From the IMG/VR virus record IMGVR_UViG_3300038469_000019, positions 1-33,270 of that record: a stretch of 33,270 nt of DNA; one strand, given 5' to 3'. Below the pieces are notes generated by a model, which saw only the letters and a program-made list of their open reading frames with translations, did not search any database and was not told the origin of the DNA. Source of the DNA: a virus. Below are positions 3,297-27,818 of the stretch, piece by piece (the stretch's first letter is position 1; each line of letters starts with the position of its first letter). Position numbers and translations under genes: made by a program.

Positions 3297-4606
3297 TACG
3301 TCAGCACCACCTTTGGATCAATGTAGAAAGTTGAAGACGCCTTGGCGCAGCGAATGTAAACTGTTAGTGGCCCCTTCATGCCTGGGGTAAAGGTTGCAAC
3401 CATCTTGAAGGCTGTGGTTGATCCGCCCCACGACGAAGCATCAGTGTCACAAGCGCCCGTTGCAAGGATGTCGGCATTTCCGCTTGTTGCAATCGAACCT
3501 TGTGGATTGGAGCCAGATCCTAAGTATTCAACATCGATCCATATGTCTTCCTTGTTTGGAACTGCGCCACCGCCCCAGATGCCATAGACCGTGGCCGTAA
3601 CGGAACTTGTAGAGTCGTTCCATATCGATATCGGAATGCAAGTGAACGGGTCTGCCCAGCGACTATTTGCTGTCGTGATGACCTTAAATGCAACCTGCTG
3701 CGTTCCGTCAGTGGCGCCGCCTGTGCGTACAATCGTTGTTTCGGTGGTCTGATCGCCCGCGTAATTATGCTTTTCTGTTCGATAGTTTACGGAACCGCTA
3801 TCGCATCGAATAAGTGTAACTTCTCCCTGCCCAAGACCGCCGGTCTGCGCCGCATTGATAGTGACGCTTGCAGGCAGCCTGCAGTCTTTAATGATGGCAT
3901 TCATTGGAGCACCAAGATTAGGGAAAATCGTCTTGGCTGATAATGCACTAAGATCCACGCCCTCCAACTGTAGAACAACTGGAGTACCGCCAGCGTTGTT
4001 AAATAACGTCGTTGGTAGCGAGCCTGCGGCATCAATCGCTGATGGTGAATTCGTCCATATAAACCTTCCGCGTCCTAAATTAATGGTGTTGCCAACGGCA
4101 CCGAATTTCACGGAGCAATTGTTCCAATAGAGAACTGTCCCTGACGTTCCCATTGCAATAGTGGCGGTAGCCGTACTCAATGTCCGGAACACACAACTAT
4201 CGTACCGTTGCTGATTTCCTGTCGTATTAACGACATTGATGCCACCACCGCCGCCTGCGGCGGCAGAGTTACTTTGAAAAATAATGCCGTAACAATAAAA
4301 GAACCCTTGGAGCGTTATAGCATTAGCGCCGGTCGTGCTGATGGTTGCCGTGGTCCTCAGATCGGCAGATACAGGTGGCACGCTACCCGTATGGATTGCG
4401 CATAGGATTTGATTGGGAGCCGTGACTGTACCTGGCGCCGTTATCGTCATAGCCGAAGCTTGCGTTTCGGCGTGGTCAGCAGCCACCCAGAATACGTCAC
4501 CAGCAGCTTTGGCCGAGCAGGCTGCCGCTAGTGTGGTGTAGGCGTTTGCCCAATCAGCGCCCGTCCCAGCGCCACCAGCGCCCGATCTAACGTATACGTT
4601 TGCCAT
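3296..4606 (-). CDS. putative parallel beta-helix tail protein
   Basis: 436 aa. The N-terminus MANVYVRSGAGGAGTG followed by ADWANAYTTLAAA is a common opening of phage and secreted right-handed beta-helix proteins. The middle is rich in short beta-prone stretches with regular Asn, Thr and Gly (for example near residues 85-180). The C-terminal ~150 residues look like a separate beta domain, possibly carbohydrate-binding. It sits directly before the glycosidase-like tailspike, so receptor binding or spike assembly is likely. No catalytic residues are identified. Confidence 0.6.
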   Translation of the reverse strand: MANVYVRSGAGGAGTGADWANAYTTLAAACSAKAAGDVFWVAADHAETQASAMTITAPGTVTAPNQILCAIHTGSVPPVSADLRTTATISTTGANAITLQGFFYCYGIIFQSNSAAAGGGGGINVVNTTGNQQRYDSCVFRTLSTATATIAMGTSGTVLYWNNCSVKFGAVGNTINLGRGRFIWTNSPSAIDAAGSLPTTLFNNAGGTPVVLQLEGVDLSALSAKTIFPNLGAPMNAIIKDCRLPASVTINAAQTGGLGQGEVTLIRCDSGSVNYRTEKHNYAGDQTTETTIVRTGGATDGTQQVAFKVITTANSRWADPFTCIPISIWNDSTSSVTATVYGIWGGGAVPNKEDIWIDVEYLGSGSNPQGSIATSGNADILATGACDTDASSWGGSTTAFKMVATFTPGMKGPLTVYIRCAKASSTFYIDPKVVLT

Positions 4607-5037: not shown

Positions 5038-5364
5038 CTAAGCCACAACGTATTGATCAACGCTCGCAAAGCTTCGCGTCGTCGTTTCGGTGTTGAGGTA
5101 ATGGTCTATGATGGCGAATTGCCGTGCTGTCCCGCCTGATGCCGTTGTATCCAGCGTGACGTTTTGACCTGTGAGGGTGAATGCGCCAACACCGCTAGGG
5201 ATCAGATAGTCCACCAGCGGGGTCATGGTCTCGCCAGACAAGATGAACGAGCCGCTACCTGCAATCAAAGTGTTTGGCGGCGCGCTGCCGCCTCCTCCCG
5301 TTCCAGCAGATCCGCCAAGCCTGCCGAATCCGCGCCCAATTGAGCCAAGGCGGCCAAACGACAT
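5038..5364 (-). CDS. hypothetical Gly-rich N-terminal tail-region protein
   Basis: 108 aa. It starts MSFGRLGSIGRGFGRLGG, a repeated GRLG/GRGFG opening seen in small proteins of alphaproteobacterial phages, followed by a Gly/Ser linker and a beta-prone C-terminal domain. ATG 5364 has AAAGGA about 8 nt upstream. It is the first gene after the hairpin cluster at 5394-5519, so it begins the host-range transcription segment unless read-through occurs. Function unknown. Confidence 0.6.
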   Translation of the reverse strand: MSFGRLGSIGRGFGRLGGSAGTGGGGSAPPNTLIAGSGSFILSGETMTPLVDYLIPSGVGAFTLTGQNVTLDTTASGGTARQFAIIDHYLNTETTTRSFASVDQYVVA

Positions 5365-5393
5365 ACTGTAATCCTTTTCAATGAGCGCTCGTG

Positions 5394-5423
5394 AAAAAGC
5401 CCGACGCTGATTAGGCGCCGGGC
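5394..5423 (-). terminator. Rho-independent terminator
   Basis: On the minus strand GCCCGGCGC pairs with GCGTCGGGC (one G-U pair, 9 bp, 7-nt loop) and is followed directly by TTTTT. The arms are at 5415-5423 and 5399-5407. It lies between the lysis genes and the host-range module and fits a standard intrinsic terminator for leftward transcription. Confidence 0.75.
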
Positions 5424-5438
5424 CAAGTCTTGGGGAGG

Positions 5439-5472
5439 AAACAACAGAAACAGGGTGAAGCGAGAACCCTGT
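5439..5472 (-). terminator. second terminator-like hairpin
   Basis: ACAGGGT (5450-5456) and ACCCTGT (5466-5472) form a perfect 7-bp stem with a 9-nt loop. Read leftward it is followed by a T-rich run (TTCTGTTGTTT). It is upstream of the stronger terminator at 5394-5423, making a tandem arrangement. Confidence 0.5.
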
Positions 5473-5515
5473 CTCCTTGGCATCAGCCGGCCACTGAAGT
5501 AACCGGCGGATTCGG

Positions 5516-5845
5516 TTACGCCGCGTCTGGCACCTTGTCGTCGAGGGCCTTCAAACGGTCGCGGATCGCAGTCGCAGATTCCACCGCAGCATCAACGGCG
5601 GCCTGCTGCTCCGGCGTCATGCCAGGTGTCGGGATGTTCGCCAGATCGGCAAGGAGCTTTTCGGTGTCGGCGGAAACCTTGTTCACGGCCTCGCCGATTT
5701 CAGCAATCACGCCTGAGAGTTCTTCAACAGTAGCCATCATGCTCTCCAGTTTGTCCAACGCGAGGCCCAGTTTGTCGGCTAGTTGTTCAACCCACGGGGG
5801 AGCCTCTTTGCCCCGTGAAAAGTGATGGTGCACATCGATACGCAT
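5516..5845 (-). CDS. hypothetical coiled-coil protein
   Basis: 109 aa. ATG 5845 has AGGAA about 8 nt upstream and sits 11 bp after the preceding gene; the longer in-frame ORF upstream overlaps that gene and is not credible. After MRIDVHHHFSRG comes a long heptad-like helix (about residues 15-60) and a second helix (75-105), with few aromatics. It is the last gene of the lysis-side cluster, ahead of the terminators. A small structural or chaperone-like helical protein is possible; the family is not recognised with confidence. Confidence 0.6.
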   Translation of the reverse strand: MRIDVHHHFSRGKEAPPWVEQLADKLGLALDKLESMMATVEELSGVIAEIGEAVNKVSADTEKLLADLANIPTPGMTPEQQAAVDAAVESATAIRDRLKALDDKVPDAA

Positions 5846-24542: not shown

Positions 24543-24717
24543 TTGGCTTCAGCTTTTTTGCTTCTTCGTGGGCAAGGCATCCAAACCTGTAGGCCATTTC
24601 GTCGCGACGGTCCCTAATCGGGACAGGCGGCAATGCAAAGCACTTATCCTCAATGCGACGAGCATCTCCCTCCGAAACCCACGGGTACAATTCGATAATC
24701 TTGTCGGCTAGCGTCAT
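24535..24717 (-). CDS. hypothetical small protein
   Basis: 60 aa from ATG 24717, which overlaps the terminase stop (ATGA); an ATG at 24726 would also be in frame. It contains LYPWVSEGDARRIEDKCFAL and a Lys-rich helical end. Unknown function; coupled between terminase large subunit and portal. Confidence 0.5.
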   Translation of the reverse strand: MTLADKIIELYPWVSEGDARRIEDKCFALPPVPIRDRRDEMAYRFGCLAHEEAKKLKPSV

Positions 24718-26012
24718 ACAACCCAATCCTCCTCAGGTTCAGGCACAAACACCGTTCGGCCGGGCGCCTCGTAGCAAATCGCCATTAGCCCCAGCGCGTC
24801 CGCAGCATGGCTAGACCAATCGTGTTCCGGCCCGAGACCGACATTGCGCTGTTCATCCTTGCGTTCGTGGTAGAAGCCGATCGCATCGCGTCCTGCTTCC
24901 GTTGTACTTTCGTTCCAGTACATCTGAGGGCCAAGGCGCCGAACTGCCTCAATCCTCATCGCCGCCGCACCACGCCCCTGGTTCTTGACCGGCGGCTCGA
25001 CGTTGAAGCCTGCTTCCCTCAGATGATCTTCGTACTTCTTGCCGGTGACGTTGTTTTCGTTAACGCCGTCATGCGGCAGGTAGAGAATGGCGTTTTCGTA
25101 CCCTTTGGATCGCAGCCAGTTGACGTGGTAGGCTAGGACTTGTCCGACGCTCTCGTAATAGTCGAGGATTCGGATTTCCAGCCCGACCCATTGGACAATC
25201 CAGATGGTGAAAGCATCTGCTGTTGCACCGCTTCCGCCAATGTCAATGAATGCTCGGATCGGAAGCAGGGGATCTGCTGTAACCTTGCCGATTCTTCCAG
25301 AACGTCGAGCCGCTGATAGCAGGCTTGCGAAATACGCCCCCTCAAAGGCGGTCGCATATCCACCTTCCCAGATATGGTCGCAGCGCTCAGGGTACTTTTC
25401 GAGGTCGATTGCTCGCTCATCCGCCAGCACCTTTGGAAACCAAGGGTTATGCTTCCAGTTAGCCTGTACAACGATGGCATTGTCGGGCTTCTTTGCCCTT
25501 AGAAAGTCGTCGATCGCGTCTGACTTGCGCCGCGGGTTCCAGCTCGCCCATATCTCAGAGCCATCCGCTCGAATGGTTGGCCGCAGCATCGTCAGGCTTC
25601 GCGTCGTCAGAGTCTGCGCTTCCTCGACCCAAGCCCGCTTGAAGTTCTCCAGCGACTTGATCGATTCCGCAGTATAGTCCTGCATGCCCTTGAAGATGAT
25701 CACGCCATCTTTCGGGGTTTGGATGGCCTCGCGGAACACCTTGAAGCCGTCCGCTTCGCCCAATCTGTGCTGCTGAAGCTTATCCTCAATCAGGAGCTTA
25801 GCGGATTCCTTGAGATCCTTCTGGACTTCACGAATGCAGACGCTGCGAAGTCCCTCGCCACATTCTCCAGGTGCTCGTTTGCTGTCTTCAACGAGCAATT
25901 CGGCGAAGAAATGAGACTTTCCAGAACCGCGTCCGCCATACGCCCCCTTATAGCGGGCCGGCTGGAGTAGCGGCTCAAATACCTCAGCCGTCTGTATTTG
26001 AAGGACGGACAA
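24714..26012 (-). CDS. terminase large subunit
   Basis: 432 aa. ATPase: Walker A GGRGSGKS at residues 26-33 and Walker B AWVEEA near 127-132. Nuclease: FIDIGGSG with Asp 257, PHDG with Asp 315, and SHAADAL with Asp 405. The overall layout fits the PBSX/Terminase_3 group. TTG 26012 must be the start: the codon before it but one is in-frame TAA context (GTG TAA TTG) and no other start lies before Walker A. It overlaps the small gene upstream by 29 bp. Confidence 0.93.
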   Translation of the reverse strand: MSVLQIQTAEVFEPLLQPARYKGAYGGRGSGKSHFFAELLVEDSKRAPGECGEGLRSVCIREVQKDLKESAKLLIEDKLQQHRLGEADGFKVFREAIQTPKDGVIIFKGMQDYTAESIKSLENFKRAWVEEAQTLTTRSLTMLRPTIRADGSEIWASWNPRRKSDAIDDFLRAKKPDNAIVVQANWKHNPWFPKVLADERAIDLEKYPERCDHIWEGGYATAFEGAYFASLLSAARRSGRIGKVTADPLLPIRAFIDIGGSGATADAFTIWIVQWVGLEIRILDYYESVGQVLAYHVNWLRSKGYENAILYLPHDGVNENNVTGKKYEDHLREAGFNVEPPVKNQGRGAAAMRIEAVRRLGPQMYWNESTTEAGRDAIGFYHERKDEQRNVGLGPEHDWSSHAADALGLMAICYEAPGRTVFVPEPEEDWVV

Positions 26013-26235
26013 TTACACGCTCGATGCGGTGCAGGATTGAGATTTCCGGCCCATCCTCGTCACCCGATACTGGCTGCGTTGGCTTGCCCCAGCCCCTATC
26101 CAAGATAGCCGTGGCAGCGCTTACCCGAGCGGCATGTGGCGCATCGGACGCATTCATGATGCCGGCCAGCGTATTAATGGCGGCTTCCGTGTGGCCGCGC
26201 GCCAAAGATCTGATTTCAGTAGGAGTTTTAGCCAT
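25984..26235 (-). CDS. probable terminase small subunit
   Basis: 83 aa. The segment AINTLAGIMNASDAPHAARV followed by SAATAILDRGWGKP is a common form of small-terminase-like proteins in alphaproteobacterial phages and prophages, with a helical DNA-binding part and a tail that overlaps the large subunit. It is short for a full small subunit, so DNA recognition may need another factor. No strong ribosome site is visible. Confidence 0.65.
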   Translation of the reverse strand: MAKTPTEIRSLARGHTEAAINTLAGIMNASDAPHAARVSAATAILDRGWGKPTQPVSGDEDGPEISILHRIERVIVRPSNTDG

Positions 26236-26252: not shown

Positions 26253-26324
26253 TCAACACCCCTTCTTGCCGCCGTTTGGCTTGGGCATGGGCTTCTGGGG
26301 CTTTGGTTTGGGCTTTGAGGCCAT
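26253..26324 (-). CDS. 23-aa Lys/Pro-rich peptide
   Basis: Found by direct reading: MASKPKPKPQKPMPKPNGGK ending in KGC. ATG 26324 has GGAG about 8 nt upstream, and the stop is 17 bp before the small-terminase start. Similar tiny KPKP proteins occur near phage terminases in my experience of such genomes, but no role is known. The composition is strikingly basic and suits nucleic-acid contact. It follows directly on the terminator-like hairpin. Confidence 0.55.
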   Translation of the reverse strand: MASKPKPKPQKPMPKPNGGKKGC

Positions 26325-26340
26325 GGGGGTTCTCCAATGA

Positions 26341-26370
26341 AAAGCCCGTCACGGATTTCTCCGGACGGGC
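26341..26370 (-). terminator. intrinsic-terminator-like hairpin before packaging genes
   Basis: Read leftward, GCCCGTC (26370-26364) pairs with GACGGGC (26350-26344), and TTTTC follows. A short inner GGA/TCC pair may extend the stem. It ends the structured leader at 26371-26718 and precedes the 23-aa peptide and terminase, so late transcription would have to read through it. Confidence 0.6.
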
Positions 26371-26718
26371 GAGGTTGATCTGACTGGCCGGGCTTGATAC
26401 CGGCTGCACTAGCCCTTCTAATGCAGCGTGACAGCTTCTCCCTTTTACGGGAACCGGGCGGGCCTTCCTTGCGGAATGAGTGGTGTGCTACCCCGGCTCG
26501 TACACTGTCACTAGCGCCTTTTACGGCTACCGACTATCGTGTCCTTCCACGCCGCAGTCAGAAAGGCTTGATCCAGACTAGACCGCTCGCTTCCCACCCC
26601 GGCTTGCCTTGGAGTTCGTGGTCATCAGCTACGCCCGAAGCGCTGCCTACCACGTTCTGTTCTGGCTTACGGGCCTAAGCCTCGTCCGTCTGCTGGATCA
26701 ATCTCGCGCAAATCACTG
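26371..26718 (-). ncRNA. candidate structured RNA, ~350-380 nt
   Basis: No convincing protein frame on either strand. Minus-strand reading gives many exact helices: CTGGATCAA/TTGATCCAG pairs (26693-26701 with 26568-26576), ACCACG/CGTGGT (26649-26654 with 26617-26622), GGCTTA hairpin at 26664-26681, CGTG/CACG hairpin at 26538-26551 inside CTGACT/AGTCGG, a 7-bp helix 26505-26511 with 26428-26434, a GNRA tetraloop hairpin (TTCC-GCAA-GGAA, 26465-26476), and 5-bp hairpins at 26404-26426 and 26387-26404. Two hairpins share the loop GTAAAA. The U-G pair and GNRA/UUCG loops favour the minus strand. Upstream TATAAT and downstream terminator bound it. Role unknown. Confidence 0.55.
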
Positions 26719-26750
26719 CGTTGCAATTATAGCCAATGCACATGATTTGC
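26708..26750 (-). promoter_or_regulatory. promoter with inverted-repeat operator
   Basis: A perfect TATAAT (minus strand, 26731-26726) lies at the centre of an inverted repeat: GCAAATCA at 26708-26715 and TGATTTGC at 26743-26750. No good -35 box stands at 17 bp, so an activator or an extended element may be needed. Predicted start near 26718 feeds the structured leader and terminase. Confidence 0.45.
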
Positions 26751-26815
26751 ACGGGCGCAACAGGGAAATTGGAACTATCCACGGGATAGACAGGATTGCC
26801 GGCCACTCCGGGCCT

Positions 26816-27052
26816 TTAACAGTGAAACGGTATCGGCGACGGCGGCACTTCTCTCTCGCGGCTTGCCCTCGCATCGATGGCATCAACCGCATCATTCATG
26901 CCCTGCAAGTAAGCCGACGCCAGCACTATCTTCATCGGCTTTTCCCCGTAGGTCATGACGTGAAACAGAAACTCCGTCCGACGCCGCGCCAGATCAATAA
27001 AGGGCGCAGGGATGTCAACGGATTCGTATCTCGGTCTACTACGAGGCGCCAT
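26816..27052 (-). CDS. hypothetical small protein
   Basis: 78 aa from ATG 27052; a start at 27106 would give 96 aa but overlaps the DUF6456 gene by 68 bp. Neither has a good ribosome site. It reads RYESVDIPAPFIDLARRRTE with a helical ending. An 8-A run lies 9 nt upstream of ATG 27052, so translation could also come from frameshifting from the upstream gene. Function unknown. It is the last protein gene before the non-coding leader. Confidence 0.5.
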   Translation of the reverse strand: MAPRSRPRYESVDIPAPFIDLARRRTEFLFHVMTYGEKPMKIVLASAYLQGMNDAVDAIDARASREREVPPSPIPFHC

Positions 27053-27818
27053 TGGCGTTATTTTTTTTGGCAAGACATCGGAAATAGGTTTTGCTCCGGT
27101 ATTCATTTAGCGCAGACTCATATTCCTCGCTCAACCTTTCCCATAGTAAACCCTCTGCTTCGCAAAGTCTTTTGGCTTCCTGATCCAAATCATTCACAGT
27201 CATACCCTCTCTCCTGTTCATCTGACGAGCACCATTCGAGTCCGCACGCGCCGTCCTCTTCCCGTTAGAAAACCCGTAAATCACCGCCATGCAGTCAAGG
27301 CATTCGCGGAACCTGGAACCAAGATACTCTTCCCATTTCTTGCCCTCCAGCCCGCGGATTTCCGCCATTTGCTTCCGGGTTCGCTTCAGGATCAGGACTT
27401 CATGCACGACGGCCGACCCGTTCTTGCCCAGCTCCCGATAGACGATCGTCAATTGCCTTGCAGCGCGCCTCTGGGGCTCGCTGATAGGCTCCGGGATGCG
27501 CCCGCCGTCTACCCACTCCTTGCTCGGATCAATCGCCTGTGGCCCGCGCTCGGCTGTTTCAAAGTCCCTCTGAAAGGCTCGTCCGGCATGGTATTGTGCT
27601 TCGTCTATCATCTTGCGGGAGTGCAGATCACCTAGCGGATCCTCTCGCCTTGAGCGGATCACGGTAATCTTGGCGCCGGGCTCGTACGGGTCGTCAACCT
27701 CCATGGTGGTGAGGTGGTCGCGAAGCCCGATGCTTGTTTCGGTGGCGCGGCGGTCGTGAAGCTTGCCGGGATCGTACGGCTTCCCCTTCCTGCGTCGTGT
27801 GGTGGTCTGTGGGGTCAT
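27039..27818 (-). CDS. DUF6456-type protein, candidate late regulator
   Basis: 259 aa. The centre has the DUF6456 look: DPLGDLHSRKMIDEAQYHAG, then RAIDPSKEWVDGGRIPEP-like text, a helical segment RQLTIVYRELGKNGSAVVHE, and GSRFRECLDCMAVIYGF at the end, which resembles a sigma-like or antiterminator-like DNA-binding region. It is placed just before the terminase region, as lambda Q or RinA/ArpU-type regulators are. The N-terminus is basic. Regulation of late genes is inference from position and shape. Confidence 0.65.
   Translation of the reverse strand: MTPQTTTRRRKGKPYDPGKLHDRRATETSIGLRDHLTTMEVDDPYEPGAKITVIRSRREDPLGDLHSRKMIDEAQYHAGRAFQRDFETAERGPQAIDPSKEWVDGGRIPEPISEPQRRAARQLTIVYRELGKNGSAVVHEVLILKRTRKQMAEIRGLEGKKWEEYLGSRFRECLDCMAVIYGFSNGKRTARADSNGARQMNRREGMTVNDLDQEAKRLCEAEGLLWERLSEEYESALNEYRSKTYFRCLAKKNNANGAS

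Follow-up and report, generated by a model that had tools for sequence, protein, structure and literature searches.

The window analyzed here, a complete IMG/VR virus record of 33,270 bases (IMGVR_UViG_3300038469_000019), probably encodes a late gene switch of the GafZ type. In such a switch a DUF6456 protein would let RNA polymerase through a terminator into the late genes, and a tRNA-like RNA in the leader would be a separate cassette; we put the probability of this reading at about three in four. Blastn found no DNA match to the window among phage records.

Layout of the late region

The elements lie on the minus strand in the order DUF6456 gene, promoter-like site, leader of about 380 nt, intrinsic terminator, 23 amino acid peptide, terS and terL, and a SU10-type portal gene comes next after terL. 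An earlier note on this DNA had named the elements from the DUF6456 gene to the terminase, and each of them was found. The leader length it gave agrees with an inferred start at about 26719 and the end of the T-run at 26340. It did not include the strongly conserved structured RNA within the leader (26379-26562, minus strand). The features are as follows, with the basis for each in brackets.

27039-27818, minus strand: DUF6456 (GafZ-like) gene, 259 amino acids, proposed late antiterminator (PF20057; hhalign; relatives)
26743-26750, minus strand: GCAAATCA element, positioned like QBE/ZBE elements (relatives' promoters; inverted-repeat partner)
26726-26731, minus strand: TATAAT, candidate -10 hexamer of the late promoter; transcription would start at about 26719 (sequence)
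26708-26715, minus strand: TGATTTGC, which repeats GCAAATCA in inverted orientation within the initially transcribed region (sequence; relatives)
26379-26562, minus strand: tRNA-like structured RNA, about 184 nt (covariance model R1, 65.3 bits)
26562-26555/26386-26379, minus strand: P1 stem (part of the tRNA-like RNA)
26552-26537, minus strand: D-like hairpin (part of the tRNA-like RNA)
26404-26387, minus strand: T-like hairpin, with the variable domain between the D-like and T-like hairpins (part of the tRNA-like RNA)
26340-26370, minus strand: intrinsic terminator, GCCCGTCCGGAGAAATCCGTGACGGGC-TTTT (folding, shuffles, relatives)
26253-26324, minus strand: Lys/Pro-rich peptide of 23 amino acids with a Cys at its end (similar peptides in L002 and L022)
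25984-26235, minus strand: terS, 83 amino acids (precedes terL in most of 80 relatives)
24714-26012, minus strand: terL (Terminase_3, E 4e-23)

We propose that the preceding operon makes the DUF6456 protein, which would load onto RNA polymerase at the promoter (about 26750-26726), probably through GCAAATCA. The loaded polymerase would read past the terminator (26370-26340) into the genes for the peptide, terS, terL and the structural proteins; without DUF6456 the transcript would end after about 380 nt. The tRNA-like RNA would be a separate cassette that the switch does not need, probably freed as a stable RNA either through processing or because transcription stops at the terminator. From homology and architecture, we infer that the DUF6456 protein of this phage binds DNA, loads onto the polymerase and acts as an antiterminator.

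The GCAAATCA element lies 11 nt upstream of TATAAT, and TGATTTGC lies 27 nt past GCAAATCA. The pair also occurs in L006, and TGATTTGC is further present in L028, L049, L055 and L009. The promoters of relatives have the GCAAATCA element between -35 and -10, with a spacing to the -10 of 3-4 nt compared with 11 nt in the window. Exact GCAAATCA is absent from about half of the DUF6456 relatives. The window promoter has the element and a degenerate -35; TTGACA is absent, and for this reason a generic sigma-70 scan reports no promoter there. We thus propose the promoter on the basis of TATAAT, GCAAATCA with its inverted partner, and comparison with relatives. A 96 amino acid open reading frame (26816-27106) overlaps the end of the DUF6456 gene; it has neither a family match nor a homologue in relatives and is perhaps not a real gene.

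The terminator hairpin (26370-26344) has a folding energy of -20.2 kcal/mol, equalled by none of 20 shuffles of the region, and was not reported by a simple terminator scanner. Near-identical hairpins occur in L009, L015, L017, L019 and L082. The Lys/Pro-rich counterparts of the 23 amino acid peptide in L002 and L022 are encoded directly upstream of terS.

The DUF6456 protein and known regulators

GafA and its homologues are annotated under the family name DUF6456 (PMC9638019, PMC9765227), and Caulobacter GafZ is the counterpart of the C-terminal half of GafA. Work published in 2024 showed that GafZ is a processive antiterminator that acts like Q; the binding element of GafZ sits between the -10 and -35 of the gene-cluster promoter, and the authors report no similarity to Q (PMC11150451).

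The window protein matches PF20057 with 24.8 bits (E 2.5e-5), just under the cut-off of 26.3, and the same model matches 10 of 11 aligned homologues, the window protein among them. When 10 phage homologues were compared by profile with 5 host DUF6456 proteins (hhalign), the match scored 97.4% with E 1.3e-11 across 155 columns. Among 14 control genomes, the PF20057 match is confined to Caulobacter. A protein-pattern scan from the DUF6456 protein alone gave no relatives, and those used here were collected via TerL. The earlier note suggested that DUF6456 proteins, if its reading were right, would be a new class of late antiterminators or activators. They are not a new class, because GafA and GafZ have been published, but antitermination is probably right given the homology to GafZ, and the central idea of that note has therefore already been demonstrated for a homologue. 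We found no paper in the literature that describes a phage version of a GafZ-type switch.

The arrangement shares several features with the GafZ/GafA systems of alphaproteobacterial GTAs: DUF6456 homology, a promoter before packaging and structural genes (PMC11150451, PMC9638019, PMC9632790), an element between -35 and -10, and a terminator to bypass. It differs in that the regulator is phage-encoded beside its target, whereas GafZ/GafA are encoded elsewhere on the host chromosome. The element is GCAAATCA here and GCGCCCG-CTGGCGC there, the terminator is before terS here and after the first gene there, and no counterpart of GafY was noted here. With lambda Q, pR', 6S RNA and tR', and with Q21, the window shares the order of regulator, promoter, terminator and late genes. 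The differences are a variable leader length, a tRNA-like RNA in the leader, and the lack of a Q-family sequence match for the window protein, for which Pfam and PHROGs give DUF6456 and phrog_21451 only.

AlphaFold models were made for the window protein and the L017 homologue. For both, Q21 of phage 21 is the best VIA-align match (Z 9.1 over 115 residues and Z 8.9 over 111 residues), although Z values below about 8-13 can reflect a common helical arrangement. Foldseek alone on the model gave no E below 0.3, so we take the weak resemblance to Q21 as a lead only.

Sigma region 4 domains rank behind Q21 for both models and are nearly as well matched, which would also suit an ordinary activator of the late promoter, with the hairpin simply ending transcription of the upstream operon or the RNA gene. 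GafA binds a terS-proximal promoter and contacts the omega subunit of RNA polymerase, and activation was first proposed in that way (PMC9638019). Caulobacter GafZ also raised expression of a reporter lacking a terminator about fourfold (PMC11150451). We consider a pure activator unlikely, since a terminator follows the promoter in most relatives, and follows it directly in most copies of the module described below; a terminator at every copy would be of no use to a promoter that is only activated. Antitermination by DUF6456 would extend the GafZ-type mechanism from domesticated GTAs to phages. The phage systems are small, with regulator, target promoter and terminator testable together, and may hint at the origin of GTA control.

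Conservation among relatives and a repeated module

In 13 TerL relatives (among those with enough sequence), and also in L082 and the window, a DUF6456 homologue precedes terS and terL in the same orientation. The distance from the 3' end of the DUF6456 gene to terL is 0.6-2.3 kb in the 13 relatives. For the set of 15 (the 13 TerL relatives, L082 and the window), promoter cores were placed between DUF6456 and terS, several of them chosen by eye, and a hairpin followed by T occurs within about 400 nt of the core in 13, compared with 4.25 expected from shuffles. The terminator is absent by this hairpin-then-T test in 2 of the 15. There are 29 matches to the core motif TTG-N6-12-NCAAATCA in 175 kb of upstream-sense DNA, compared with 15 in 1.08 Mb of control sequence.

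The distance from core to terminator is mostly 62-152 nt; it is 407 nt in the window and 337 nt in L080, and in these two long cases the tRNA-like RNA occupies the interval. The leader of the window is long because an RNA of about 184 nt sits inside it. The earlier note compared the region to the outline of lambda Q and its late genes, and counted relatives without the leader and terminator as evidence against that comparison. The order of DUF6456, promoter, terminator and terS is kept in relatives, as is the terminator, but the long leader is not. The comparison of the leader with lambda 6S RNA does not hold up, because most relatives have only 62-152 nt and the extra length is a separate RNA that mostly occurs without DUF6456.

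The 26719-26340 transcript could instead be mainly the gene for the tRNA-like RNA, with late genes transcribed from another promoter and the lambda outline coincidental. Only 8 nt separate the RNA from the terminator, and the RNA is found in many phages without nearby DUF6456 and in tRNA arrays. Relatives that lack the RNA nevertheless keep the promoter-terminator pair, and in L004 the RNA is downstream of the terminator, which makes this improbable.

A module that consists of TTGAC, GCAAA(A/T)CA, a -10 and an immediate terminator is present in 1-5 copies. One group of relatives has a near-constant version, TTGACACGTCGGGCAAATCA-CCGGCATAT-CATCATCGCAAGAATT-terminator. The exact 20-mer TTGACACGTCGGGCAAATCA is found in 70 IMG/VR stretches, with at most 5 copies in each and a terminator directly after most. 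In L389-L455 (e.g., L404 and L439), the module from TTGACACGTCGGGCAAATCA to the terminator is near-invariant, about 95 nt long, and present up to five times per stretch.

No DUF6456 was found in 17 IMG/VR records with the canonical 20-mer, or by sensitive profiles in six related records, and in both cases the records may be fragments. Among 119 genomes of one family, the promoter is present in 4 (at most 1 mismatch allowed), DUF6456 is over the cut-off in 87, and 9 have weaker matches only. All 4 genomes with the promoter belong to these 9. Whole genomes with the promoter and a weak DUF6456 match explain part of the records without DUF6456. Three of the four have the DUF6456 gene 13-28 kb upstream of the promoter, with both on one contig and in one orientation. 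Two of these three encode a DUF6456 protein 46-48% identical to that of the window over 182-190 amino acids, and in those two terS begins about 200-225 nt past a promoter-terminator copy. The four genomes may be close relatives, and thus are not four independent events. What is new is that DUF6456 in phages is accompanied by a recurring promoter-terminator module, either next to it or elsewhere in the prophage. The repeated module is a readable signature for locating the regulon.

One 8-Mb genome (G379; L468, L472, L476) has nine copies of a variant promoter, TTGACACGTCGGGCAAAACA. Six copies are scattered and three are together near a prophage-type terS, and at least one scattered copy keeps its terminator. 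These copies are possibly a regulon like the GafY targets.

A tRNA-like RNA in the leader

The leader element is a folded RNA that has been conserved. A blastn comparison of the leader with relatives matched short conserved blocks, and a pattern scan of IMG/VR with each of these blocks found more than 100 stretches. Selection on the two hairpins alone gave 76 pairs among the matches listed, nearly all of which have a complementary outer stem that was not selected for. The layout is P1 (8 bp), 2 nt, a 5-bp hairpin with loop GAWGGA, a variable domain, an A, a 5-bp hairpin with loop UNUCRAGY, and P1'. In 40 aligned cores, preselected for at least 5 P1 pairs, 96.5% of cells pair, compared with 28-38% when slid. 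Covariation is strong: there are 168 double-changed cells, compared with 46 in shuffles, and seven of the eight P1 pairs are double-changed. G-U pairs, which are A-C mismatches on the opposite strand, indicate that the minus strand of the window is the RNA strand.

The RNA resembles tRNA and tmRNA in having an acceptor-like stem that runs directly into a T-arm-like hairpin (loop UCRA), a D-arm-like hairpin (GG in the loop) reached through a 2-nt linker, and in some cases tRNAs adjoining it at 3-13 nt. The GG of the D-like loop may contact the UC of the T-like loop. It differs from tRNA and tmRNA in its 8-bp P1, its 8-nt T loop, a variable domain in place of the anticodon arm, and the lack of a visible CCA. 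It also differs in going undetected by ARAGORN, which predicts no tRNA or tmRNA genes in the window, and by Rfam 15, in which no family matches, tRNA and tmRNA models included. The variable middle domain is no better folded than shuffles (mean z -0.23), and only the words CCGAAAG and CGAAAGG exceed shuffles (11 and 9 loci, compared with at most 8). A twister ribozyme, suggested by the GGUnnCAAGnCC loop, was rejected (17.3 bits, gathering threshold 67.2, partial match around the T-like hairpin). We found no description of the RNA in the literature, where most subscription papers and bioRxiv were outside the reach of the search.

There are at least 124 distinct copies, mainly in proteobacterial phages and prophages. 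The leader thus led to a large RNA family, absent from Rfam, whose members occur in at least one cyanophage and, among Proteobacteria, in phages and prophages of several classes. Covariance-model matches include Caulobacter phage DMCA, Komagataeibacter phiKX1/2, Pseudanabaena phage Pan3 and Acidovorax phage AP1, in which the RNA is always between annotated genes. In the set of 82 sequences formed by the window, L082 and the TerL relatives, the model finds it in 4. When bacterial genomes were scanned for the exact motif, 55 stretches matched, most of them from Alpha- and Betaproteobacteria. E. coli genomes have no match, and two plasmids have partial matches. A core host gene was ruled out by its presence in only 4 of 385 alphaproteobacterial genomes.

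Several families of terminase large subunit are encoded downstream of RNA copies on the same strand, and none is among the families listed upstream. This position in many phages would be expected if the RNA were a cis-acting antiterminator of the late operon, like the HK022 put RNA. We think this very unlikely, because other copies are at operon ends, beside integrases and inside tRNA arrays, and the L004 copy follows the terminator.

A tRNA gene is predicted within 1 kb of the RNA in 21 cases, and 35 of 36 such tRNAs are on the same strand. Seven copies are 3-13 nt from a tRNA, and tRNA density is about 6.5 times that in the rest of the same loci. Such short gaps suggest that P1 marks both ends of a unit that is processed as tRNAs are. 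The data are compatible with roles as a tRNA-processing substrate, a tRNA-nuclease decoy or an adaptor. We lean, by a small margin, towards a widespread, undescribed phage RNA family with a conserved tRNA-shaped scaffold (acceptor-like stem, GAWGGA 'D' and UNUCRAGY 'T' loops), in which a hypervariable domain of about 40-175 nt replaces the anticodon domain. It would be produced as a unit of phage tRNA operons and late leaders, for example as a decoy or adaptor exploiting the machinery that processes tRNAs or shielding the phage against defenses that target them.

Individual loci have further features. In L080 a DUF3800-IX RNA (RF02968, 56 bits; 5237-5307) directly follows the tRNA-like RNA and precedes the terminator. 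L151 has a tandem pair of the RNAs with differing middle domains (5225-5552), and in L269 ARAGORN predicts a tRNA within the variable middle domain (3788-3858). In alignment A5, two same-strand proteins encoded upstream of the RNAs match NusG (PF02357), some members of which are antiterminators. The L289 copy (1432-1609) is within a large tRNA array, with tRNA-Cys and tRNA-His on either side.
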